Below, piece by piece: positions 1-50,468 of a stretch of DNA of 64,000 nucleotides. The notes beneath the pieces are model-generated. The model saw only the letters and a list, made by a program, of their open reading frames with translations, was not told the origin of the DNA and ran no database searches. Source of the stretch: Rhizophagus irregularis (taxonomy: Eukaryota; Glomeromycota; Glomeromycetes; Glomerales; Glomeraceae); NCBI RefSeq assembly GCF_026210795.1, contig NC_089430.1:3348001-3412000 (forward strand). Direction: 5' to 3'. The translations under genes were made by a program, and so were the position numbers. Positions within the stretch are counted from its first letter, which is position 1. Every line of letters begins with the position of its first letter.

Positions 1-1660
1 TAAAAAAAAAGTATTAATAAAAAAAATTAAAAAAAAATTTCAAAAAAAAGTTTTGAAGAAAAACTTCAAAACTTATATAAGAAGCTGACCCAAATTTCGA
101 AAACAATTCCTACAAATAAACAAAAGAAGAAATGATTAGTTTTTTTAAAATAAAACAAAAAAAATTTAAAAAAAAAGTTTTAAAAGTAAACTAAACTTTC
201 AAAATTTACTGATCATATTCACAAAAAAGCAGTGCCTACAAAAAAAGAAAAAAAAAGATTAAAATAATTTTAAAAGTTTTAAAAGTAAACTTTACTTTCA
301 AAACTTACAAATCATATCATTTAAAATCTGGAAAGTTCAATCTACAATACCTGCAAAAAAAAATCAAAAAAATCAAAAAAAAAATAAATAAATACCATAT
401 ATCCAAGATGTTGATCTACAGCAAGGTACCATTTTACAAAAAAGAAATCATTAAAGTCAGCTATTTAATATCAAAAAATTTAACCAAAGAAGTTCAAGAA
501 GCCATTATGTAAAGATATTCTTAGTTTATTAGTTTCATCTAATGAGTTATATATTAAAGAAGTATCAAAAAATTATACAACTATATTCAAGATTATTTAA
601 TCGAACCAGAAAGAACTGAAGTTCAATATCAAAAGAACAAAAAAAATATCTACAAAAAAAAAATTATCAAATAAATTTCAAATAGAAACTTACCATATCA
701 ATATTTGCATATCTGAATTCATGCTAAAGTAACTGATCTTACAAAAAAATAATATAAAATTTAAAAAAAATAAATTAGGAAAAAAAAGTTATATTTCAAA
801 TTTCAAATCAAAATTTACCATATATTTAAATTCCAAAGCTGAAAAAATTGATACCTACAAAAAAAACAAAAAAAATTAAAAAAAAATAAATTAAAAAACA
901 TAAATTTTGAATCAAAGTTAAAAAACTGGACCTCTACAAAAAAATATTAAAAAAAACATTAAATCGTTTCTTATATTTAAAATAAAAAAAAATTTTTCTT
1001 TTCCCATTTCTCACTACCTTAAAGTCCAGTTTTGTAATATTCAAGCTGACATCTTCCTAATTAGTGATTGGAATCGATTATCATTATTAGAATCGATTTT
1101 AGAATCGATTAATCATCAATTAATCGTTAATCGAAATTATACTACTGTCAGTCACGTGACTATCAAAATTATTAAGATCGACATAAAAAATTTCCTTTTT
1201 GGGAATTTTGTACAACATAACTTGAATTTTATTGGATAACAAAATTTCCTTTTTTTGGATTTTTGTTAATGTCACGTGACATCGACCTAACTTCTTATTA
1301 ACGAACTACCTCAAAATATCACGAAACAGCCGGCATTAAGAAATTAAGAAATTAACTATGTGACAAATAATGTGTGACAAATAGGCCAATACTTGTAGGG
1401 TACACAGGGAAAATCTTATTAACGCTACTGCGTCACAATAAGTAAATTCGATTTTTATTCAATAATCGATTTAAAATTGATTCTTATCGATTTTTGATAA
1501 ATTCGATTATTGTAAAATCGATTCCAATCTCTATTCCTAATATATGTCTATCCTACAAAAAAAATAATAATAAAAAATGTTAAGTTGTTTCTTAAATTAA
1601 AAAAAAAAATCAAAAAAAAATAAATCAAAAAAAATATGTAAGTTTTAAAATAAAACTTAT
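1..1660 (-). repeat. Array A of intron/micro-exon-like units
   Basis: Read on the minus strand, this AT-rich stretch repeats one pattern: a T-rich tract ending TTTGTAG or TTTGCAG, a 26-44-nt segment of higher complexity, then GTAAGT or GTAAAT followed by a TTTTGAAAG-like stretch. Clear segments lie at 77-109 (donor degenerate, ATAAGT), 210-235, 309-350, 694-737 and 819-854; weaker ones end near 421, 650 and 933. A further unit at about 1020-1550 is split by the hAT MITE at 1062-1533. Segment lengths (33, 26, 42, 44, 36) are not all multiples of three and no shared reading frame is visible, so a protein-coding mini-exon gene is not supported. Related arrays are at 8.7-9.4 kb and 40.2-40.7 kb. 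Confidence 0.6.
1062..1533. mobile_element. hAT-type MITE, 472 bp
   Basis: The terminal inverted repeats read TAGWGATTGGAATCGATT at both ends (left W=T, right W=A) and are extended by several AATCGATT repeats inside. The element is flanked by the perfect 8-bp duplication TTCCTAAT (1054-1061 and 1534-1541), the size typical of hAT elements. It has no coding potential. Two TCACGTGAC palindromes lie inside. It interrupts one unit of array A. Confidence 0.85.
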
Positions 1661-1667
1661 ATTACTT

Positions 1668-2053
1668 TCAAAAAAAAGAGGTGAAAGAAAAGTGTGAGAA
1701 AAAAGATGGATGTAAGAAAAAGAAAATAATGAAAGGGGAAGGAAAAAACAATAGGAAAAAGAAAGAAAGTAAAGAAGTATAGGAGAAAGAAAGAAGGAAA
1801 AGGGAAAAGTTTAAAAAAGATAATCTTTTTTTAAACTTTTGATATGTATAACGCATAATGACATAATATTTAATTTTAACCAACATATAATTATAAATTA
1901 TGATTGAATTATTTAATTTTACTAGTCAAATATAAGCCAAATTTTACTAAGGCTGAATATTCCTTTTTCAACTAATGAGAAAAGAGGAAATGTGAGAAAG
2001 AGAAAGAACGGAAAAAGAAAAAATAAAAAGATAAAGAAGAAAAGGAAGTTTTG
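1668..2053. repeat. Purine-rich (GA) tracts
   Basis: The plus strand is almost pure A/G at about 1672-1812 and 1975-2053, with an AT-rich stretch between. A similar tract (about 40,695-40,800) follows array C in the same relative position, so the GA tract and the intron-like array may belong to one repeated unit. The open frame on the minus strand (1668-1886) is a low-complexity Phe/Ser/Leu translation of the pyrimidine strand and is not a gene. Confidence 0.5.
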
Positions 2054-2203
2054 TTTATCATATTGCTAAGATTATATTACGTAATGTGATAATAAATAAG
2101 GGCTAATATAAAAATTTATTTTCAAATACATTATATAAATTTATTCATTCAGTGTCATTTGATAAACATTAAATTTTCATTATTAAATGCTGCACATCAT
2201 AAT

Positions 2204-2869
2204 TTTTTTTTTTTTTTTTTTAAAAACTTTATTATAGATGCGATCATGTCTTATTATAATCACGCTTACTTACATATATAAACTTACAAATATAAGATAA
2301 ACAAATACATATAAGAATTAAGCATTATGAAACAATACTACTTTTCATAAAGAACAAGTCGACTTGTCACCTAAACGATCACATCATTGTTAAAAACCAT
2401 GATGCGACCTCAAATTCAGAGGTGACTGTCATGATCTACCTAAAAATTTGCCCAATGACCATCACAATGGAATGCCAAATCATTCCATTTGTTCCAATTA
2501 CTTTCTAACATATAATAGTCAACATCTTTGACACCTACTTCAGTGCTTTTACTATGTGACTTAGCTTTTTTATCTTTACCACTAATACCACACCTCATTT
2601 CTTCCTTTACTACATGTTATAAATAATATGCATGTATGATTCTTTCTTTATTAAAAAAGCTGTATGTACATACTATCAGATACAGAAAGATAAAATAAAC
2701 GAAAACAAATTTTCTAAATAATTCGTTAAAACTACTGAAGAAGTCTATATATTTTTCTTTCAAATAAAATTTGCCATATGTAAATATAATCAAATATGGA
2801 ATGATGTGAAACTAAAAATAAATTCAATAGACAAAACTGACTATATATTTTTCTTTCTAACTGAATAGC
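2204..2869 (-). mobile_element. LINE-like insertion with poly-A tail
   Basis: A run of about 18 T (poly-A on the minus strand) begins the insertion at 2204. The 14-bp sequence CTGCACATCATAAT occurs perfectly at 2190-2203 and 2870-2883, immediately flanking it. A poly-A tail plus a long, variable-length target duplication is the signature of target-primed reverse transcription. Only about 650 bp is present and no intact frame is visible, so it is a 5'-truncated or SINE-like copy. Its start (TTAAAAACTTTATTA) resembles the starts of the relics near 4360, 22,870 and 41,870. Confidence 0.65.
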
Positions 2870-3191
2870 CTGCACATCATAATAAAAATCTCATTGATGA
2901 TATTTATTAACATTAAATATTACATATTTATTTAAAATAATGAATATTATAATATATATGATCTACAAAAATATATATATGATAAACATTATTTCTGTGA
3001 TTTTCTAATGTTATTACACCACTTGGAAGTCTGGGTAAAGTTATTTCTATTAAGATTACTCAGCAAAAGAAGTATAATACAATTAGATTAAAATTAAAGA
3101 TATTGTAAGCTTATCTTAAATAATAAAATCTAGACAGTTTCATTAGGAAATATTTTAGTGAAGTGATTTCCAGCCACCTGATCTCTCTAAT

Positions 3192-3749
3192 ATGAAAGAA
3201 AATAAAGAGAGAGATTTCAATAGTTTCTCTTTGAATATATCAGATGATTATACTGCTATATTGTTTTCTAATAATCAAATCTATCTGGCTTTATTGGCAA
3301 TAAGCAGTTTCAAAGCCTTTAAAGTTATCATTACTGAAGAATAGAAGTACAAACTTGTAACTTATCTGGAAAAATGGGAAGATCTTAACAATCTTATAGG
3401 AAAGAATTACAAAATTGATGGTAAAACTTTAGATTGATATCATTATACTTTTTCATATTTTACCAGAAAACCTAAAGATAGGTCAAATATTAAAAATAAA
3501 TTTAAAGGTTTCAACAACTTTCAGAAAAAGAATTTCAATCCAAAGAATAAAGTTACAGGTACTAATCAAATTCTTCTGAATATTTGAACATATCAAGATC
3601 GAAAGAGGTTTTAATCAAGGATAGATACTAGTAATAAACAAGACAAGAAAAAAAGAATCCTAGAATCTTCAAGAAAAAAATTATACAAGAAAGTAACAGA
3701 ATAAAAGGAGATGTTAAAGAAGCTAACAAACAGAATCTGAAACAGGTGA
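3192..3749 (+). pseudogene. Decayed gag-like ORF
   Basis: One frame from an ATG at 3192 to a TGA at 3747-3749 reads as coherent protein-like sequence (for example SLNISDDYTAILFSNNQIY, then a Lys/Asn-rich stretch containing FKGFNNFQKKNFNP) but contains several in-frame stops, including TAG in EE-stop-KYK and TGA after KTLD. The basic, Asn/Lys-rich C-terminal half suggests a gag-like nucleic-acid-binding protein of a retroelement. No catalytic domain is visible. The family is not recognised with certainty. Confidence 0.4.
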
Positions 3750-4660
3750 CCTATTTTTGGTTTATATATGAGAAATTGGATTTTTATTTAATATAGATTT
3801 AGTTTTAATTTTTATTTTTTAGATAGAAATTTTTGTTTCTTTCAGAAATTTTTTTTATTCTAATTAGTTAGTATGTAAATTTAAATACGGATTTCTACTT
3901 TTGCTGCTAACTACTTTTTTTTTTTTAGATATGATGTGTTATCTTATGAAATATATTTGTCATTGTATGTCAACGAGTAAGCTATTATTTCAATTGTTTA
4001 AGTTTTTAAAGATTCGTTTCCTTTTATATTGATTTGTAATAATTTTTTTGAGTATAATAAAAAAAAATAAAAATAAAAATAAAAATATTTTAATTTAAAT
4101 AGCTAATTATCATTTTTTTTTTTACTAAAAATAATCTTATTTTTTTTTATAAAAAACAGTACAATTTTAATCATAAAAGATAACTTATTTATTTAAAATA
4201 TAATATTACAATATTTTATATATTGTTTATAATTAAAGTTTCAATTTTTATTGGCTAATATTTAATTATATAATTGTACTATATTAATTTTAAATATTTA
4301 ATATATTTTCTGTAAAATAATTATATTACTATTATTTGTTATTATTATTATTATTATTATTTGCTGCAATATATTTAAACTTTTATTAAAATAAATGAGT
4401 TTGTAATATATTATACAAATGAAAATAAACTATATAAACTAATTTAATAATAAGATTTAAACTACTCGTCATCCTAAAAAGAATCTCACATATACACTAT
4501 CAGATCATTTAGGTGGAATTTAGGTTATGAGTTTGTTATTATTAAATAATATATTTTTATTAATATTTTAAATAAAATAATAGTTTAAAAATTTGATAAA
4601 ATAATTATAAAAATTATTCTTAATATATTAGATATAAAAAATAGAAAATTTCAAAGTTTA
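3750..4660. other. AT-rich stretch with LINE 3'-end relic
   Basis: No gene is seen. A short (TTA)n microsatellite lies at about 4335-4362. From about 4358 to 4515 the sequence (GCTGCAATATATTTAAACT, later CTCACATATACACTATCA) matches the 3' end of the relic at about 41,865-42,000, so it is a degenerate copy of the same LINE-like 3' end, minus-strand orientation. Confidence 0.45.
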
Positions 4661-5031
4661 CACAGGGTGTTTGAACACGGGTCATATGAAATATAATGAC
4701 ACCAATGTCACACCCTTTTACTTTTTCTATGCAATATATGTATTTTTGACTGCTCTGCAAGTTTACTTAAGGCATCAAAGGGGGTTTTGAATGCCGTTGT
4801 TGACTAATATATGAAAAACTGTCTTTGCCGATCATTTCCTAAATTTTTTCAAGAGAGCGATCGGCAAAATCAATTATTCATAGGTAAAGTCAAAACTGAC
4901 ATTCAAAAGCACCTTTGATTCCTTAGATAAACTTGTAGAGCAGGTAAAAATCCATTTATCTACTAATTTTGAAGTTTATATTATTAGTCAAAATGGTAAT
5001 AATCACATGACCCAGATTCAAACACCCTGTG
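4661..5031. mobile_element. Tc1/mariner-type palindromic MITE
   Basis: The ends are CACAGGGTGTTTGAA and TTCAAACACCCTGTG, flanked by TA on both sides (4659-4660 and 5032-5033). The whole 371 bp is a long imperfect palindrome (for example TGCCGATC near 4835 and GATCGGCA near 4860, TTTACTTAAGG and CCTTAGATAAA). It has no ORF. TA duplication and CAC... termini indicate mobilisation by a Tc1/mariner-superfamily transposase. Confidence 0.85.
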
Positions 5032-6033
5032 TATAAATAGAAATTGCCTAAAAAATATGATATTATATTTAAAATAACAAAAATTATAAAAAATTTAGCT
5101 TATTTTTATCAATAATTATTTTTAATATTGATAATTATTTTGTTAACAGATATTTCACTAATAATTATTTTATTAACAGTTTATCCATTTACCTTAATTT
5201 AATTTTAACTTAATCTTAACTCTATTTTTCTATTTTATTAACTTTAATTTTAATTTTAAATTTCTTTATTAGTAAGATAATTAAAGATTTCTAATGTGAT
5301 ATCTACTTATTGCTGTTTTCTAATTACTGTGATCTAGCATTTTTTAATAAAAAAAAAAATTTTTTGAGAAAACATATGAAAATAAAAATTTTATTGCATT
5401 TTCAAATAAAGGAAATATGATTATAAGCTAAAAATTATAATTTTAAGAAAAAATTATCAATCTTTAAATAAGTTTGCTTATAAATAACTTTTAAAAACAA
5501 TTTGTTACACAAAATTTTAAAAAGTTACTTTATAGATGCCGTCGGAATTATTTTTACGGTTACGGCATGTGCCGTATCACCGTAAAAAAAAGCCGCAAAT
5601 CGTAAATGCCGTAATGCCGTAATTTAATTTGACGCCGTAATGCCATAATTTAATTTGGTGCGTAATGTCGTAAATTTACATGGCGTAAATAGATAATTAA
5701 AAAATAATTCATTTACATTTATTTTTAAGAAACTTCAAATTCTCTTTTTTTGCAGAACGATATCACTAAGTCGAAAAGGATTTTCTTTGAAATTTACTTT
5801 AAGAAATGACATTTAACTTCGTTTCTTATTCTTTTTTTTTATTTACTAAACGTAATCAACTAAATATAATGTTTATTTATATAATTAATTTTATTCACTA
5901 ATAATTATAATGTTTATTTACTAATTATCATGTTTTATAACGTTATTTAATACTAATTATAATGTAATTTCATTTACATTGTTTACTAATCTGTTTCCGA
6001 TTCTTCATCAAATATTGCTTCAAAATCAATATT

Positions 6034-8407
6034 TCAATCCTCATAATTTATAGATTCATCAGGTTGTTGGTCCGAAATATTTGAATTCGAATTATCATCA
6101 TTTTGTTCGTTAAAACTATCTAAATTCATGATATTTTCCATAATCAAATCATTAGTATTAGCATCATCATCATTCAAATCAATACTTTCATCATCCAAAA
6201 CAATATCATCATCATCAATGAAAATATCATCATTATTAATCATAGCTGTAGTAATTTCTTGTAATGCAGTTTCAAGCTCATTTTCACTTAAATCACTACT
6301 AGAAAATTTTAACTCGATTTTGCATTTGTAATATAGTAGGAGTGCATTTGAGCCATGGATTGGAGGCGATCAATATCTAACCTAAAAAAAAAAATTATTA
6401 ATAAATTAATATTATATTATTACTGTTATTAAAATTAAACAAATACCTTGTTCTCCGCTTTCCTATCATCCAATTTAATACTGAAAAGGCTCGTTCACAT
6501 GCAGCTTGATGAGGAGTAATAGCAAATAACTTTAAAGCTAATTTTTGAATATAATTATTTGGCTGTCGACAAGTTGACCACCAAAGTTCAGGCGTATCAT
6601 ATTCATCAATATATTCCATATCATAAGGTGGTTCATTATCACCATATGATCGAAGTTGCGATAGCAAAATTTTGCAACTTCTTTTATCACTACCAAATTT
6701 TGACCAAATTTTCATAGCAGTTAATGCCATTTGACGAAATGTACTGTCTTGAAATTTCTTGTCTAATATGAAAAGTAGGAACAATAAATACATTATATTT
6801 AACAAATAAGTTAGAAAAATAATCAACTTTACCTCTATATCTTGGATGGAGGAAAAAGGCAACAAGATATGTATCAGTATCAAACTGTGCCCAACGTTTA
6901 TTAAATATGTTAATACAATTCTTTTTGAAATTTGGATCAAAATAATTTGAAATCTTTTTAATTTCAACTGCCATCTGAATTAATTGCAAAAAAATTGATG
7001 CCATATTACTCGAATTAGCTTCAACAGCTTGAATTGCTTTTTTAGCAGGTGCAAGAATTGTATGAAGTTGTTCAACATCTTGAAAAAACTGGCGATTTTG
7101 AAGAAGATTTTTTATTGCTATTGCATTAATAAAAATTTCAGTTTGAGTTTCAAGAACCTAAATTATAATCCAAAAATAAATATTATTAATTTTAGTTTAT
7201 TATTAAATATGTTATTATTTGTTAACTTACATTTTTGAGATTATTTTCCAAACGGATAATTGAGTCACAACAAGTCCATGCAGTAGACCACCTTGTTTTT
7301 ACTGATGTCTTAAGGCCACCTCCTTCTGTTAAAGTTTGAATAATATCTTTTTGGAAATTTGCACCTGCACGATATGATGTTTTAAAAAAAGTTATAATAG
7401 ATTGGCATTTTTTTAATGTGTTTTTTGCAAAATCCAATTTAATAATATCACTTGAAACTAAATTCAAATGGTGTGCCATGCATCATATAGATAAAATATG
7501 GGTGTACTTTTCAGTAATTAGTCTTCTCGCCATTTGCATTGCTGATTCAAAGATCGATACTACAGCTGCAAATTTTTCTGTCCAATTGTGTCAAAACTTT
7601 TTCAATTTCAGTAGCATTAAAAGTTCCAGTATGGGAATCCATTGACGTATCTTTCAAAGTACGAATATATTGCCTTTTACTTGGGGTAATTATTATAAAT
7701 GCATAAATAGATCTTCCTAAAGGATCACACCATCCATCAACCGCTATAACAAAATTAAAAATATTAATATGTATGTAAAAATATTAATTAATTTGATATA
7801 CAGTAATTAAATAAATTACCTAATGTTAAATTTTTTTCATATTTGAGTTCTTCGATTTTATTTAAAATTATAGCAGTTTCATGATTTAAGAAAGTTGTTG
7901 ATAGGTTGCTTCTTTTATTTTATTTAGGCAAAACAGTAGACTTCTTTTAACAAAAATCAATAAAATAAAGTGGATGACTAACGGTTGATAATCGGTATTC
8001 CACAGCAAATAAAAAATCGTATGTGCTTGATCAATTTTATCTTTTCTATCCGCAGTGTTCAAATCACCGATTTAATCAGAATCTGTTTTTTGTTTTCTAT
8101 TCATAGTACATGGCCTCCAACAGCCAGCATTTCCATATATTCTGTTTTAATATATAGTAACATCTTTACAATACAATGCTAAATGCGACTTCAAAATTTC
8201 TGGTTTTCCTCTAGACCAGTTTTGATTACAGTAATGACATCTAGCTGCGTAATGCCCACTACCCAACGGTTCTTTAAAATAATGATCCCAGACATGCGAT
8301 TCTTTACGACCCCTTCTAACTTCTCTAATATTTCGATTATCAAATAAATCTGTCAATCCATTTTTACAGTCACAAAGATTATGTAAAAGCAAAAACGTAA
8401 TACACAA
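6034..8407 (-). pseudogene. hAT transposase, BED finger to hATC, broken
   Basis: Reading down the minus strand: an N-terminal BED-type zinc finger (8147-8407; ARCHYCNQNW with downstream HLALYC), the VDGWCDP motif containing the first catalytic Asp (about 7740), the CMAHHLNL motif (about 7485), a middle region (6690-7004), and a C-terminal hAT dimerisation domain (WWSTCRQ, ACERAFSVLNWMIGKRRTR, 6440-6600), ending in a very acidic Asp/Asn tail (6034-6243). Introns are recognisable: GTAAGT..TTTAG at about 7158-7230, GTAAAG..ATTAG at about 6760-6832, and GTATTTG..TTTTAG at about 6380-6448. Damage includes a TGA just before CMAHHLNL, frameshifts near 7590 and 6313, and loss of the expected SD motif (VVSIFESAM instead of a VVSD-like sequence), so it should be inactive. 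Confidence 0.85.
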
Positions 8408-8699
8408 TTTGTAAGATTATTTAAGTTAAAAAAAAGATTATCAAAATCGTGATTCATGTTACACATCAACTGATTAGAAGTCTATGTAACACAAAATATT
8501 TTTTATTTCGTAATAATAAAAAATTTCAAAAATTTCTAAGTTGTTTGATTTGTTTCAATTTTATTTATCAATGGTTTAGACATTTGTCAATTGCTAGTTC
8601 AATTCCAACAGGTAAGCTAGATAATGTTCCTAAAGAATGAAGGAATGAAAGTTAATAATATTTCTTAAAAGTAAATGCAAGAAACTTTCCTCTGCTTAC

Positions 8700-9420
8700 C
8701 ATGTAGATTCGTCGATGGTTGAACCATTCCCTACCTACAAAGTTCTTCATGTATCTTATTTAGTTCTTTGTATTTTGTACAAATTAACGTCTTAATAAAA
8801 ATAAAAATAAAAACATTTTATATACATTCTATTGTTGGATTACTTTTTATTAGACGTGTTTTTTGCATACATTATTATATAAAAATAAGCACATTTTTAT
8901 ATACGTACTTTTGTTGGGTTACTTTTTATTAGACATGTTTTTTTTTGCATACATTATTATATAAATGTTAAGAAAAATCCTCTCCACTTAACCAATGAAG
9001 TCGTCGAAAGTCCACAAAAATTGTTCTGAAAAAAAGAAATAAATTTAGTTGTTGTTTTTGACAGTAAATATCAAAAACAACCTCTTTCCACTTACCAGAA
9101 AATCCAAGAAATCCTGCAAGAACTGCTTCTTAAAAAAGAAAAAAGAAAGCGAAGTTAATCAAGTCGTTTCCTAAAGTAAATATCAAAAAAAAAAAAATCC
9201 TTTACTACTTACTAGGAGGTACAAGAAGTCCACAAGAACTGTTCCTAAATACAAAGAAAAAGAAATGAAGTTAGTTAATATCATTTGCTAAAAGTAAATA
9301 AAAAAAAAACTTTACCTACAGGAAGTCTGGGAAATATAAGAAAATACTTCTAAAAATAAAAAAAAAGAAGTTAATGATATTTCAGAAAGAACTGTCCCTA
9401 AAAAAAAAAGGTGCGCTGTA
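8700..9420 (-). repeat. Array B: micro-exon-like units in hAT leader
   Basis: On the minus strand, at least five units of roughly 110 bp each show polypyrimidine-AG, a 32-35-nt segment and a GTAAGT-like donor: 9316-9349 (donor GTAAAG), 9213-9244 (GTAAGT), 9096-9128 (GTAAGT), 8993-9025 (GTTAAG) and 8700-8734 (GTAAGC). Three segments are clearly homologous (GAACAGTTCTTGTGGACTTC, AAGCAGTTCTTGCAGGATTT, AACAATTTTTGTGGACTTTC). The array lies just upstream of the hAT transposase start and in the same orientation, so it would form a multiply spliced 5' leader if transcribed. No long frame crosses it. Confidence 0.55.
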
Positions 9421-9805
9421 AACATTTTTTTTAAAAAAAAATATTTACGGCATATATATTTGCGGCATTACGGCGCTAGATTAAAATACGGCATTACAGC
9501 GTCAAATTAAATTACGGAATTACGGCATTTACGATTTACGGCATTTTATTACGGTTACGGCATGATTTACGACATATGTCGTAACTCCGAAATGTCATAA
9601 TTAGGGAATTCCGACAACATCTATAAGTTACTTATAAGTAAACTTATTTAAAATTGAAAATTTTTTCTTAAAATTATAATTTTAGCTTATAATCATACCT
9701 CCTTTATTTGAAAATGCAATAAAATTTTTATTTTCACATGTTTTCTCAAAAAATTTTTTTTTTATTAAATAATGCTAGATCACAGTAATTAGAAAACAGC
9801 AATAA

Positions 9806-39700: not shown

Positions 39701-40189
39701 TCAACATTATAATGTTTATTAAAGTATTTATTAAATATTTATAAATAGCACTTATTAAATACAAGATATATTGAAAAAGTGCCTATAAGTGTTAAATTAA
39801 AGTATTAAAAAAATATTTAAAAAAAATATTTAAAAAATTAAATACTATAAATAATAAAATATTGCAATATTTAAGTATTAATTTTTTTATTACTTAATAA
39901 ATGTAAATTTTTAATACTTATTAAATACTTTTATTTAGTAAATACAAAACTCCATTTGATTAAACTTCATGATATTATTATTAAAATCTATTTTATATAG
40001 TCATAATCTACACACCTATTCTCAAAAATCATATTAAAAAAAAACTATTTCTAGTTATAGTTATATAAAAAAATATATTAAATTACTTGATATTTAATAA
40101 TCATATAAAAATATACTCATATAAGCTGATTTGTTTACTTTGCATTAAAAAGAGTTAATGACTGATTTGTAATTTTGTTTGATGTTTCT
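39701..40189. other. AT-rich stretch with a repeat fragment
   Basis: No gene is seen. At about 40,122-40,165, AGCTGATTTGTTTACTTTGC ATTAAAAAGAGTTAATGACT is a fragment of the element nested at 48,276-49,206 (GGCTGATTTGTCTACTCTGC). Confidence 0.45.
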
Positions 40190-40690
40190 AAAAAAAAAAG
40201 AAAGGAAATGTTAGAAATGTTTCCTAAAAAAAATTAAAAAAAGTAAATTTTGAACATGTTTAAACTTACCATTTCACTTTCTGAGATTGAATGCTGAAAA
40301 AATTATACAAAAAAAATAGGAAATGTTAAAATGTTTCCTTACAAAAAAAAATTAAAAAAAAAATTTTTTTTAAAAAAGTTTTAAAGTGAATGTTTTAAAA
40401 CTTACCATTTTGTTTTCTTGTCAAAAATACTGAAAGACCTAAAAAAAAAATAAAGGATTATTAAAAACATTTCTTATAAAAGTAAAAAAAATTTTTTTTA
40501 TTTTAGTAAAGTTTTAAAACAAAACACTTTAAAACTTATCATCATTTCAGTTTCTTATTTCCTGAAGTCAAAACATCAAAAATCTTACAAAAAAAAAAAA
40601 GAAAACATTAAAAACATTTCCTTATAATAAAGAATTAACAAAAAAAAATTTAAAAAAGTTTTGAAGCATTTTGCTTTGAAACTTATTATT
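40190..40690 (-). repeat. Array C of micro-exon-like units
   Basis: On the minus strand about four units of ~115 bp show a T-rich tract ending in AG, a 24-45-nt segment, then GTAAGTTTTAAA. Segments include CATTCAATCTCAGAAAGTGA AATG (TTTCAG before, GTAAGT after), GTCTTTCAGTATTTTTGACA.. ending AAAATG, and ATTTTTGATGTTTTGACTTC.. (donor degenerate, ATAAGT). The intron-like parts (GTAAGTTTTAAAACATTCAC, CTTATAAGGAAATG) match between units and resemble those of array A. GA-rich DNA follows on the plus strand (40,695-40,800), as after array A. Confidence 0.6.
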
Positions 40691-41014
40691 GTTTTTCTGA
40701 AAGATAGTTTTAGAAAAGAAAAAGAGAATGGGAAAGAAGAAAGAAAAAGAAAAGGAGTGGAGAGAAAAAAAGGAAAGGGAAAAAAGTAGAAGAAGAGTTT
40801 AAAGATAAATATGAAATTTTTGAAAAATGGTAAATAAGTAATTTATTTGTTTCTTTATATTAATTTCTTACATTTTTTTATACTTTCATTAATAATTCTT
40901 TAAATCTTCATAATCTCTTAAATTTACTAAAATTTAAATGGATAAAAATTGAATCTTTGAATTTATAATATAAATTTTCTTTTATTTAATTGAATAAAAT
41001 GTATTAGCTTAATT

Positions 41015-41339: not shown

Positions 41340-41470
41340 ATTCTGCTAAAGAGAAGGAGAAAGAAGGAAGGAAAAGAAAGAGGAAAGGGAAAGGTAAAAG
41401 AAAGAAATGGGAAAGAACAAAAAAAGGAAAAGTAAAAGTCGCCAAGAAAAAAAATTAAGCTTTTTCTTAA
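41340..41470. repeat. Purine-rich tract
   Basis: The plus strand is nearly all A/G from about 41,347 to 41,452, like the tracts at 1.7-2.05 kb and 40.7-40.8 kb. No coding role is evident. Confidence 0.5.
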
Positions 41471-41608
41471 AAAAAGTTTAATTTTTTTTTATTATACTGC
41501 AGCTGAAGCTGTAGTAATTATTAAGCAATATCACATGATATACATGATAAATATTTTTAAGCTTTTTTCCTGAAATTTTTTTTTTATTTTTTTAATTTAA
41601 TGATAGAT

Positions 41609-41631
41609 GTATATATATATATATATATATC
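41609..41631. repeat. (TA)n microsatellite
   Basis: An uninterrupted run of about eleven TA units, next to AT-rich DNA. Confidence 0.9.
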
Positions 41632-41854
41632 TAATAATTTTATGAAAAATCCCTCTTCTATAAATAAGTAAAAGCTATAAAGTATTTATAGCAAAAGAAC
41701 CATTGCTACTTCTTTCGCCTATTTATAGTGATAAAAAGAAGGAATCTTTAGTAGTAAGATTTAGTATTAAATTAAATAACACATCTGTCATATAGTTTGA
41801 ATATACTGATATGTTTAGTATATTTTATAGTGTTAAATAATGCATATTTTTTTT

Positions 41855-43217: not shown

Positions 43218-44534
43218 AGGATCCCGGAAAATGCTTATATATGTAAGGTACCAAGGTGCTTAGCCAACATAGTAAAGTTTTATGATGTAAAAATTTTATA
43301 ATGCTTAATTTTAAGAAAATTTTATACTATGTAAGATAATTAAATTGCATATTTTTGGTATTATTTTAAAATACTAAGAGTTTTTAGTTGCTTATTTTTC
43401 ATATTTATATAACTTTTTAAAATATTATATATTGAATTTATAATTAATTTTTATTTTATTTTCACTAACGGTAAGTGTTAATTTTGTACTACATTTCACA
43501 ATTTTATATAAATATATAAACAAAAATTTTTTTTTGATGAAATTTCATTTTTTTTTCAATGTTTTATTAATTATCTGTCAATAGTATCTTTTTAATTTTT
43601 ATTAAACTCAGTGTATTATTTTTAATATAAAATTACTATATTATACATGTTTATTTTGTTAAATAAAATTACTATAAATATGTTTTACTTTAAAATATAA
43701 TTTCACTACTCACCACTTTGGTTATATCAAATTATCTTTTATGTTTAAGTAAGTTTGTTCAGCAAGTTAAATCTACTTGTATTTTAATTTTCATAAGGCT
43801 AAGTATGATATTTATATAGAAAAGCATATTTTTTTTAATGGTAATAACTTTTAAATTTTTCACTTTTTCGTTTATAACTTCAGAGCGTAATTACACCACT
43901 TCAGTCAAATGAAATCGACTTTCTAAATTAATTGAAAGTTGTTCGGCAAGGTCGAAACTACTTATATATTAATTTTTATGAGTGTGGGTATAATACTTAT
44001 GGAGAAACGTGCATTTTTCATAACAGTACTAACTTCCAAATTTTTCATTTCTCCGTTTACAACTTCAGAGCGTAATTACACCTCTTTGGTCAAATGAAAT
44101 TGACTTTCTAAATTAATTGAAAATTGTTCAGCAAGGTCGAAACTACCTACATATTAATTTTTATGGGTGTAAGTATAATACTTATAGAGAAATTTACATT
44201 TTATGTAATAGAATTAATTTCGAATTTTTCTTTTACTGTTTATTAACTTTATTAATTGAATATTGTTAATCTACTTGTATATTATATTTAGTTTAGCTTC
44301 ACAACATATTTAAAATTGGATTTAATAAAATATATTAATTAATAAATATATTTTATAAATTATATGTGTTATAATAAAAATTTAATTAGGTTAGAAGATT
44401 AATTTGCTTATTTTTATATAATTTTTAAGGTTAGATATCAACAATGCTTAGCGATCATAGTAAAAACCTATGCTTAGAGCTACTAATAAAAAATATTTTT
44501 GGGACCTTACCTATATAAGTATTTTCTGGGTCCT
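43218..44534. mobile_element. AGGACCC element, 1.3 kb, copy 1
   Basis: The left end AGGATCCCGGAAAATGCTTA and the inverted right end AGGACCCAGAAAATACTTAT match, followed by TATARGTAAGGTMCC. A perfect 8-bp duplication GCTTGTAC flanks it (43,210-43,217 and 44,535-44,542). TGCTTAGC motifs lie near both ends. The interior has about three ~180-bp tandem units (ACTTCAGAGCGTAATTACAC .. TTGTTCGGCAAGGTCGAAAC). No ORF. A second copy in opposite orientation is at 48,212-50,468. Confidence 0.88.
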
Positions 44535-46307: not shown

Positions 46308-46664
46308 ATTTGGCCAAAATTATAAAATAAAATCTTAATGCTGGTCAAAATCATGTGATTTGATAAAAAAGCAAATTTGGCCCCTAATTTTAAGAGTTAA
46401 CGTTAGTGCTCTACATGAGTCAGCTTGATTTGAGCCAAAATATGGCTTGAACTTGGCTCAGAAAACTGCAGTAAGCCAAGCCTGTAATGAGCGAAATGCC
46501 CCACAAAAAATATTACTTCAGCTTGTTTAGTCAAGCTAGCTTATTAAAAATCCTGGCTTGAAGTCAAGTTGGGCTCAAGTTAGCTCGAGCTTTATCATAA
46601 AAATGTTTTTGCAATGTTTTTACTTTAAATTATTAAAAAAATGTTGTGAAACATTTTTTCCTTT

Positions 46665-47815
46665 TTGTTTTTATATATAAAATGCAAAAACTATTTATTT
46701 CAGCATTTTTTTTTGATTTTACATGTAAAACTGCCAAAACTAATAGTTTCAGCAGTTTTTTTTAATTTTACATGTAAAACGTTAGAATCATTAGTTCTGG
46801 CGTATTTCTTTTTGATTTTACATGTAAAAATACTAAAACTGATATGGTGGCTGTCACCTATAAATCACACTAATATTAAGTGACTTCAAATTTTTATAAA
46901 TTGTAAATTGAATAGTAAAAAGAAAAAACTAAACCGATAAAATGATATAGCAACATGTACTGAACATTTCTATCGGATTATTTTATAGAATTTAATAAGA
47001 ATTTTTATTAATATTATGGGTTAAAGTTGGATAATTTTAATAAGTAGCAATAATAAAAATATAAAATTTCGGACTAGTTTTCATGTAATTTTTATGGATT
47101 TTACAAAAATTCCATGGAAATCCACAAGAATTCCATGTAATATGGCAAAAAAAATTTTGCAAAAATGCTCACGCGGCAATTAATATTTTGACAAAGTACT
47201 TTAAAACATAAGTTACACAATATAAATAAATAAATTTCAAAATTTTGGACTATTGTTGTTTATAGGTGACAGCCACCATAGTTTCAGCATTTTTTTTTCG
47301 ATTGCACATATAAAAAAATGCCAGAATAATTAGTTCTAATATTTTTCTTTTGATTTTACATGTAAAAATGCCAAACCTATTCATTTCAGCATTTTTTTTG
47401 ATTTTACATGTAAAAACGCCAAAAGTGATAGTTTCAGCAGTTTTTTTCGATTTTACATGTAAAACGTCAGAATCATTAGTTCTAGCGTATTTCTTTTTGA
47501 TTTTACATGTAAAAATACCAAAACTGATAGTTTCAGCATTTTTTTTCAATTATACATATAAAAAAATGCTAGAATAATTAGTTCTGGTATTTTTCTTTTG
47601 ATTTTACATGTAAAAACGCTAAAACTATTAGTTTCAGTATTTTTTTCAATTTTACATGTAAAAGTACCAGAATAATTAGTTCCAGTATATTTTTTTTTGA
47701 TTTTACATATAAAAATGCTGAAACTGATAGTTTCAGCATTTTTTTTTGATTTTACATGTAAAAATACTGGAATTATTAGTTCTGGCATTTTTTTTTTATT
47801 TTACATGTAAAAACT
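46665..47815. repeat. Satellite of TTTTACATGTAAAA palindromes
   Basis: Units of ~55-60 bp each contain the perfect palindrome TTTTACATGTAAAA separated by alternating spacers (AGTTTCAGCATTTTTTTT and TTAGTTCTGGCGTATTTCTT). I count eleven perfect and about four degenerate palindromes, three or four of them left of the nested MITE and the rest right of it. Because the units have no stops in several frames, overlapping open frames exist on both strands (DFTCKTPK.., FTCKIKKK..); these are by-products of the repeat and not genes. Confidence 0.9.
46845..47278. mobile_element. Tc1-type MITE nested in the satellite
   Basis: The ends TGGTGGCTGTCACCTATAAA and TTTATAGGTGACAGCCACCA are inverted and flanked by TA (46,843-46,844 and 47,279-47,280). 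The satellite unit ACTGA-TA-GTTTCAG is split exactly at TA, giving an internal empty-site control. The end resembles the left end of the IS630-type element at 54,681 (TGGTGTGCGTCACCTATAAA), which may supply its transposase. No ORF. Confidence 0.88.
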
Positions 47816-48211: not shown

Positions 48212-50468
48212 AGGACCCCAGAAAATACTTATATAGGTAAGGTCCCAAAAATATTTTTTATTAGTAGCTCTAAGCATATGGGCTGATTTGTCTACTCTGC
48301 ATTAAAAAGAGTTATTGATTGATTTTCACAATTTTTGTTACTCAAAATTGTTTTGTAATACCAAAAAATCATCTGATTGATGATCACTTGACTAAATAAT
48401 AAGTTGAACAAAAATTTACATTTGCAAAACTTAAATTATTAAATGTAAAAGAGCTGTGAAAAAACCCATTTCACTAATAAAAAACCCATTTTTCATATAT
48501 ATGGAATTTTTAACATATATTATTAAAAAGTAAGTATATTTTAATAAAATATAAAGTAAAATAAAAATTTATATAGCCTTAGTAGCTATAAATGTTTATA
48601 AAAGTATAATAAAAATATCATATAAAAGATGGTATTATAATAAATATTTTCAAACAATAAAAATAATTATTTTATATCGGAGTTTGTATTACCATCTTTA
48701 AACGTAAATATATCAAGATTCACTAATCCATTTTCTATAATTTTAGGCTCGTTGGAAAGCCCTTGTTCTGGACTTTATAGGCGAAAAAAAGCTCGTCGAT
48801 TGAATCATTAGATCTGGAGATATTTACGTTTAAATTTGAGGTACAAACTTTTTAACATGCTTAAATGCAAATATCTTGTGATCCACTGATCCATTTTTTA
48901 TAAATTTAGGCTCTTTGGAAAGCCATTGATCTGGTCTATATGAACGAAAAAAGAGCTTGCCAATTGAATCACTGGATCTGGAGATATTTACGTTTTAAGT
49001 TGAGATACAAATTTTTAATATATATAGTAAGTGCTAAGAATTATATTAATTTAAAAGAAATATTTACCAAATTATAGTATAATAACATTAAATAAAAAAT
49101 TTTTTAATACTCATTTCCAATTTACTGTATATTATATAGTATTTTGTATAATAAAAATGTAATAAAATTAATATTTTAATTAAAAGTAGACAAATCAACC
49201 CATATGGCATAGGTTTTACTATGATCGCTAAGCATTGTTGATATCTAACTTTAAAAATTATATAAAAATTAGCAAATCAATCTTCTAACCTAATTAAATT
49301 TTTATTATAACACATATAATTTATAAAATATATTTTATTAAATCCAATTTTAAATATGATCAATACATTGTAAAGCTAAACTACTGACTAAATATAATAT
49401 ACAAGTAGATTAGTAGAATAATAATATTCAATTAATAAAGTTAATAAACAGTAAAAAAAAAATTTGAAATTAATACTATTACAAAAAATGTAAATTTCTC
49501 CATAAGTATTATACTTACATCCATAAAAATTAATATGTAGGTAGTTTCAACCTTGCTGAACAAATTTCAATTAATTTAGTAAGTCGATTTCATTTGACCA
49601 AAGAGGTATAATTACGCTCTGAAGTTATAACTGAAGAAATGAAAAATTCAGAAGTTAGTACCATTATGAAAAATGCACTTTTCTCCATAAGTATATTACT
49701 CACACTCATGAAAATTAATATATAAGTAGTTTCGACCTTGCTGAACAACTTTTAATTAATTTAGAAAGTCGATTTTATTTGACTGAAGTGGTGTAATTAC
49801 GCTCTGAAGTTGTAAACGAAAAAGTGAAAATTTAAAAGTTATTACCGTTTAAAAAATATGCTTTTCTATATAAATATCATACTTAGCCTTATGAAAATTA
49901 AAATACAAGTAGATTTAATTTGCTGAACAACCTTACTTAAGCATAAAAGATAATTTGATATAACCAAAGTGGTGAGTAGTGAAATTATATTTTAAAGTAA
50001 AACATATTTACAGTAATTTTATTTAACAAAATAAACATATATAATATAGTAATTTATATTAAAATAATATATACACTGAGTTTAATAAAAATTAAAAAGA
50101 TACTATTGAAAAATAATTAATAAAACTGAAAAAAAAAACTGAAATTTCATAAAAAAAAATTTTTGTTTATGTATTTATATAAAATTATAAAATGTAGTAT
50201 AAAATTAATACTCACCGTTAGTGAAAATAAAATAAAAAATTAATTATAAATTCAATATATAATATTTTAAAAAGTTCTATAAATATGAAAAATAAGCAAC
50301 TAAAAACTCTTAGTATTTTAAAATAATACCAAAAATATGCAATTTAATTATCTTACATAGTATAAAATTTTCTCAAAATTAAGTATTATAAAATTCTTAC
50401 ATCATAAAATTTTTCTATGTTGGCTAAGCACCTTGGTACCTTACATATATAAGCATTTTCCGGGTCCT
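48212..50468. mobile_element. AGGACCC element, copy 2, inverted
   Basis: The ends AGGACCCCAGAAAATACTTA and, inverted, AGGACCCGGAAAATGCTTAT are flanked by the perfect 8-bp duplication GTCATAAC (48,204-48,211 and 50,469-50,476). Apart from a nested ~930-bp insertion the sequence is the inverse of the copy at 43,218-44,534, giving a 1.3-kb inverted repeat 3.7 kb apart. No ORF. Confidence 0.88.
48276..49206. mobile_element. Element nested in AGGACCC copy 2
   Basis: The ends CATATGGGCTGATTTGTCTA and, inverted, CATATGGGTTGATTTGTCTA interrupt CTCTAAGCATAGGTTTTACT, which is continuous in AGGACCC copy 1. Two ~155-bp tandem units (about 48,670-49,015) share GGCTCKTTGGAAAGCC and ATTGAATCAYTRGATCTGGA GATATTTACG, that is, the inverted hairpin-module motif. 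A fragment is found at 40,122. The duplication length cannot be decided because the ends overlap the target sequence. Confidence 0.7.

Follow-up and report, generated by a model that had tools for sequence, protein, structure and literature searches.

In the analysed window, a 64,000-nucleotide segment of the Rhizophagus irregularis genome (C2:3348001-3412000; GC 25.3%; assembly of 146.7 Mb in 32 contigs), three stretches represent worn copies of mobile elements in which tiny non-coding exons alternate with intron-like units, many of the latter hairpin-forming, and comparable rows recur throughout the genome. As judged from their sequence, these arrays are probably multiply spliced non-coding transcription units borne by DNA transposons. 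Their typical unit consists of a GTAAGT-like donor, a CTAAC or TTAAC branch site, a pyrimidine tract and a terminal TAG, with an exon of mostly 25-55 nt. The intron-like stretches are bounded by GT and AG and mostly measure 70-110 nt, and roughly 8-17 units are arranged in tandem in arrays of the types A and C. The first-pass annotation had described a T-rich minus-strand tract ending in (C/T)AG, an insert of roughly 24-45 nt and a GTAAGT or GTAAAT donor, and this succession is indeed present at all three loci, with insert lengths that are not all multiples of three. It had also merged positions 1-9420 into a single feature, whereas array A (1-1660) and array B (about 8630-9448) sit in different transposons.

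The strength of the splice signals was assessed by a chain score, which combines donor, branch site, pyrimidine tract and acceptor relative to the local composition, with 60 dinucleotide shuffles per locus as null model. Compared with shuffled sequence, as had been proposed, array B stands out clearly (score 48.5, opposite strand 11.2; z 5.5), but the values of the other two arrays are modest, with 44.7 for array A (opposite strand 10.4; z 2.7; best shuffle 43.7) and 17.8 for array C, which barely differs from the 13.4 of its opposite strand and is exceeded by the best shuffle (23.2; z 2.2). Taken alone, A and C of the window are suggestive only, and since these copies are eroded, the case for both rests on their younger relatives. 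All seven of those tested have high z values (L006 9.7, L009 9.4, L012 8.2, L017 15.8, L029 16.4, L030 20.9 and L032 20.8), with chain scores of 120-296 compared to 18-43 on the opposite strand. It is the score that discriminates and not the number of introns per chain (11-18), as shuffles yield chains of 7-12 weak introns. The chain of L030 comprises 17 introns, and among its later exons forms of 38, 31 and 30 nt occur repeatedly. The chain of L017 also includes a few spurious introns in the TIR region. Six further loci chosen by motif contain 10, 11, 9, 2, 10 and 8 strong introns, where 15 shuffles of each locus average 0.4-1.0, and the one with two, L046, reaches a high chain score. Among 73 strong C introns from seven loci, which were chosen partly by their branch-site score, the branch A is located 22-25 nt ahead of the exon in 56.

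Array A occupies positions 1..1660 on the minus strand of an eroded element (1..3010, minus strand; in full C2:3347370-3351010), which extends 631 bp past the window edge. One TIR starts at 3010 and the other at C2:3347370, with 6 and 5 mismatches, and the element is flanked by a 2-bp duplication, AA. The best-preserved introns are found at 308-236 and 209-110, weaker ones at 818-733 and 693-606, and micro-exons at 350-309, 235-210 and 854-819, all on the minus strand. Positions 1067..1528, formerly counted as part of this array, are a MITE-like insertion of 462 bp with 13-bp inverted ends and without assigned strand, within a stretch that does not align to the relatives. The GA-rich tracts that were said to follow arrays A and C do adjoin them, but on the array strand they are CT-rich and located upstream (5') of the arrays, at 1660..2050 and 40690..40850 (both minus strand); from the promoter-like position of the former we infer a promoter role. 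A 340-bp query from array A found at least 53 matches in the genome (best 40 of 132 candidates scored), and a full young A copy at least 158 (best 40 of 582 candidates scored). The TIR of this carrier reads CATCAGGAAGTCACGGG.., and the 2-bp flanks match in all 15 loci that contain both TIRs among the 24 scanned, with the window copy being one of the 15. Among 75 A-type TIR ends listed at no more than 2 mismatches, there is no obvious pair enclosing an element of transposase length, and in eight A elements neither strand offers more than short unspliced coding runs, with a maximum of 134 aa in an A-rich stretch opposite the array of L010. With 34 CG dinucleotides over 3.6 kb, the window copy has an observed/expected ratio of 0.80, compared to 1.29 in L006 (72 over 2.6 kb); the deficit of the old copy is such as decay of methylated CG would give.

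Array C spans 40188..40690 on the minus strand, with introns at 40686-40585 (covariance-model E 0.026), 40405-40294 and 40269-40188 (E 0.00037) and micro-exons at 40438-40406 and 40293-40270. A further part of the C-type element is located upstream at 41349..41845 (minus strand) and is about 72% identical to L029 and L032. The array recurs in at least 89 matches (best 40 of 310 candidates scored), and C arrays end with a conserved terminal exon. CACTA (CMC/EnSpm) elements are defined by TIRs starting with CAC and a 3-bp target duplication, and both features are found in two of two complete copies. The copy at C11:21122-26190 carries the TIR CACAGGTCGAA.. and the duplication CAT. The same TIRs, with the duplication ATA, delimit L049 (C1:7447730-7456032), which holds a tnp2-like gene and no array, and whose matches to PF02992 (E 0.00065) and DUF4218 (E 0.009) are both below the Pfam cut-offs. 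By its ends, the carrier of array C is thus classified as a CACTA-type element, apparently non-autonomous, and L049 is a candidate partner. As a source of the arrays L049 was rejected, with no strong intron in 9.4 kb. The strand opposite its tnp2-like gene carries a further set of open frames. We found 84 C-type 3' TIR ends, and 32 of the 37 listed terminal exons stand 784-1524 bp ahead of a C-type TIR in matching orientation. Only six of 16 motif arrays, picked from 25 clusters on C1 and C2, are located beside such an end, and other carriers must therefore exist.

The introns of types A and C share a structural feature, as in most of them the donor sits at the foot of a hairpin or within its loop, and a second hairpin presents the branch site in its own loop. 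This was investigated in an alignment of 44 of the 73 strong C introns, with the remaining 29, chiefly early-position introns of another form, left out. With no structure supplied, RNAalifold predicts the donor hairpin with 13 pairs, seven of which show double changes, but not the branch hairpin in these 44 introns, whose helix was named by us. When both hairpins are specified, 94.3% of 897 alignment cells pair, although these are not independent events since tandem units are related, and 11 of 21 pairs are doubly changed (donor stem 7 of 13, branch stem 4 of 8); the branch helix pairs in 88.5% of its cells. The covariation amounts to 0.188 compared to 0.031-0.072 with the partners slid, and of five measures four exceed all 500 column shuffles, whereas the number of pair types was matched by 22 of them. 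The C donor stem thus covaries clearly and the branch stem less so. In a permutation control, 76% of 66 A introns exceed the 95% level with their branch stem and 62% with their donor stem; for 78 C introns the proportions are 90% and 88%, and for 80 introns of other arrays 76% and 61%. These latter loci had been selected through their palindromes, and the A and C loci through sequence similarity. A covariance model built from the 44 C introns recovers A introns and introns of other arrays: across 30 sources it has 108 matches at E<=0.1, 105 of them on the array strand, and no match at this threshold in seven array-free loci (L039-L042, L049, L050 and L052). Within the window, array C scores best (E 0.00037). 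Two plus-strand matches outside the arrays, at 46727 and 47711 (E 0.07 and 0.15), outscore every match in A and B, and a palindromic C site on the plus strand also ranks above the weak A and B matches (E 0.25 and worse). A tandem repeat at 46662-46829 and 47278-47814, to which the two plus-strand matches belong and which the model thus fits weakly, combines TTTTACATGTAAAA palindromes with AACTAAT..TTTCAG strings on the plus strand.

Array B (8630..9448, minus strand) has introns at 9448-9350, 9319-9245, 9212-9129, 9095-9026 and 8699-8630, the first four of which are separated by micro-exons of 30-33 nt. As described before, a hAT transposase gene follows on its 3' side in the same orientation (6070..8380, minus strand), which has introns of its own and is disrupted in the window. 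The domain search returned DUF659, which we take to be linked to hAT, above the cut-off (E 1.5e-18) and zf-BED (E 0.0027) and Dimer_Tnp_hAT (E 0.0022) below it, and on these domains the carrier is assigned to hAT. A query with array B gave 13 matches (10 of 10 candidates scored), including four other close copies that are 95-98% identical to the one in the window. The array of the near-identical copy L036 reaches a z of 8.3 with five strong introns. L038 (z 6.6, four strong introns) and L037 (z 5.5, one strong intron) are about 69-72% identical to B, and the transposases 3' of their arrays are related, with identities of 71% (126 aa) and 76% (90 aa). In all three loci (L036, L037 and L038) the B array stands ahead of a related transposase, and the earlier suggestion of a multiply spliced non-coding leader suits this family. 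An open frame adjoining the hAT relative of L038 (2439-3326), with matches to DUF3504 and QRICH1 barely below the cut-off, is presumably tyrosine-recombinase-like.

Whether array B belongs with the other two is less evident. It might instead be the 5' part of a hAT gene that is simply rich in ordinary introns and has no relation to A and C, whose introns form a family of their own, and we grant this view slightly less than an even chance. It is favoured by the lack of hairpins in most of the ten B introns investigated, where branch stems exceed the control in 20% and donor stems in 10%, and by the C model, which has no match at E<=0.1 in L036-L038. Conversely, the size of the units and the micro-exon layout resemble those of A and C, and five B introns of the window show weak matches to the model (E 0.25-1.3). 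An ordinary origin of B is compatible with the preferred explanation of the arrays as multiply spliced units carried by transposons.

The hairpins could also reflect a role of the DNA itself, with the units being palindromic repeats that act as binding sites of a transposase or form cruciforms and whose likeness to splice sites is secondary. Counted as exact pattern matches on both strands, with fully symmetrical sites counted twice, the donor palindrome occurs 688 times in the genome and the branch palindrome 891 times, compared to 0 and 2 for the reversed-pattern controls. Most A and C units contain two palindromes, some donor palindromes are identical on both strands, a weak inverted B-like unit (5770..5842, plus strand; model E 2.4) is found near the 3' end of the hAT element, and the splicing of the units is itself read from sequence. 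Against this, no strong intron is present over 9.4 kb in the described CACTA-type element, which shares the TIRs of the C copies and holds a tnp2-like gene, so that this element does without an array as cis site. Moreover, the units hold one orientation, and donor, branch site, tract and acceptor follow each other in a fixed order at near-constant spacing, which makes a purely palindromic nature improbable. The exclusive use of the minus strand that had been noted holds within the window but not in the genome, where the donor palindrome is divided into 336 and 352 by strand. Of the hit pairs within 1.5 kb on C1 and C2, 352 of 388 are on the same strand.

On C1 and C2, which account for 9.6% of the genome, the 174 hits listed form 57 clusters, 25 of them with at least three hits, and by extrapolation from these 57 there would be several hundred arrays genome-wide. 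Even isolated hits mostly belong to arrays, as six of eight are located in arrays of at least four introns at the threshold applied. Of the other two, L057 is ambiguous, and L052 marks an intron, with no branch hairpin seen, within a gene that by eye looks dehydrogenase-like. In L048, an intron array is followed after about 670 bp by a fragment of a protein kinase domain (2547-3098) in the same orientation. Within the window, a 185-bp tandem unit is present at 43755-44192 and, inverted and about 5 kb away, at 49438-49931 (93% identical), as if these were subterminal arrays of another element.

The multi-exon layout would also be expected of protein genes composed of micro-exons, whose frame is revealed only by splicing. 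In L006 and L009, in-silico splicing yields stop-free runs of 96 aa, which are above the shuffle means of 66-72 but inside the shuffle range, and in L030 a run of 78 aa compares to shuffle means of 79 and 68. In nine out of nine arrays the longest run falls within the range obtained by shuffling exon order and dinucleotides, and exon lengths are mixed modulo three. With no frame continuing across the exons of these nine arrays, we rejected a protein-coding micro-exon gene, and consider such genes very unlikely. Rfam contains no match within the window at the gathering threshold, and a tRNA search found none. Intron-less copies would have been indirect evidence of splicing, but a search with one C array spliced in silico was negative, as the matches listed were all exon by exon (best 40 of 66 candidates scored). 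In five aligned C copies, conservation amounts to 0.85-0.97 in exons, 0.93-0.97 in introns and 0.82 in the upstream tract. The first-pass claim that inserts are less conserved than splice-like signals is borne out insofar as exons are lowest in all nine pairwise comparisons, but the signals are significantly above the rest in only one of the nine, and these copies consequently do not demonstrate selection on splicing. The argument for a putative splicing design is instead the plan common to diverged families. An AT-rich tandem satellite whose likeness to splice sites is compositional, as had been considered initially, agrees with the z values of A and C in the window alone but is hardly credible for these families in light of the z of 8.2-20.9 in their relatives, the near-constant distance of the branch site, the palindrome counts relative to their reversed controls and the covariation.

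In the preferred explanation of multiply spliced units carried by transposons, the array would be transcribed as one unit and its introns removed by the normal spliceosome, with the hairpins shortening the distance between donor and branch site and exposing the latter, although the donor hairpin could hinder binding of U1. Units would multiply by tandem duplication and whole arrays by transposition of their carrier. In the hAT family the array is found directly ahead of the transposase, whereas in A and C it constitutes the main content of the element and no transposase was seen there; for both, the earlier notion of a repeat multiplying as intron/micro-exon units is appropriate, as tandem units are found within transposing elements. 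Tentatively, the arrays may be a self-contained mobile cassette of structured spliceosomal introns, in effect a non-coding gene consisting almost entirely of introns, that is carried by unrelated transposon families of this fungus and is kept since repeated splicing protects the RNA or the locus from silencing. Speculative as well is the proposal that a heavily spliced leader might make the transposon RNA resemble a host message and slow its silencing by small RNAs. In worms, intronic barriers to nuclear RNAi are described in the accessible part of one study (PMC5554785).

Several known systems share some of these properties. As far as the available text of PMC8469720 extends, fungal introner-like elements are many similar canonical introns of stable predicted structure in one genome, which integrate seamlessly in exons of ordinary genes. 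The arrays resemble them in the many similar introns suggested by the motif counts and, for A and C but not for B, in the stable structure; they differ in that introns are in tandem with non-coding micro-exons inside repeats, and single copies in coding genes account for one of eight isolated hits (L052), in a small sample. The same portion of that source describes symmetrical stwintrons of Hypoxylaceae, which proliferate and have terminal inverted repeats of 45-55 nt and no flanking duplications; proliferation and inverted repeats are common to both, whereas our introns contain two short separate hairpins each and have a transposon as carrier. In Amoebophrya, according to the part of PMC7789003 at hand, inverted repeats of introners pair both intron ends and most have non-canonical sites, compared to the canonical sites and local hairpins found here in likewise spreading introns with hairpin-forming repeats. 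The C elements agree with CACTA/CMC elements in their CAC-starting TIR, 3-bp duplication, subterminal repeats and tnp2-like relative and deviate in an interior made of a multi-intron non-coding unit, and the B carrier agrees with hAT in its DUF659 domain and the weak zf-BED and dimerisation matches and deviates in a 5' region of micro-exon/intron units. CMC and Plavaka elements are reported from R. irregularis, where two-thirds of the TEs are unclassified, in the accessible portion of PMC11075540. In the main texts of this study and of PMC8647823 the strings 'intron' and 'splic' are absent, and among the papers listed by a literature search that covered few subscription papers, no title or start of an abstract describes arrays of introns, whether in a transposon or in Rhizophagus.

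If spliced, the arrays would be very dense and reside in transposons rather than genes, which would make them mobile intron arrays of an unusual kind. They would then allow a natural test of the idea that introns protect transposon RNA against silencing and serve as a test bed for effects of branch-site hairpins on splicing. They might explain part of the unclassified repeats of the genome and could mislead gene predictors. If the tentative mobile cassette were real, several hundred arrays would amount to thousands of introns serving transposons and not genes. Several C-type arrays are no more than some tens of kb away from the end of a contig, at about 16-22 kb of C8, about 21-26 kb of C11 and about 3.557-3.559 of 3.618 Mb on C24, and minisatellites flank both of the two contig-end arrays that were looked at.
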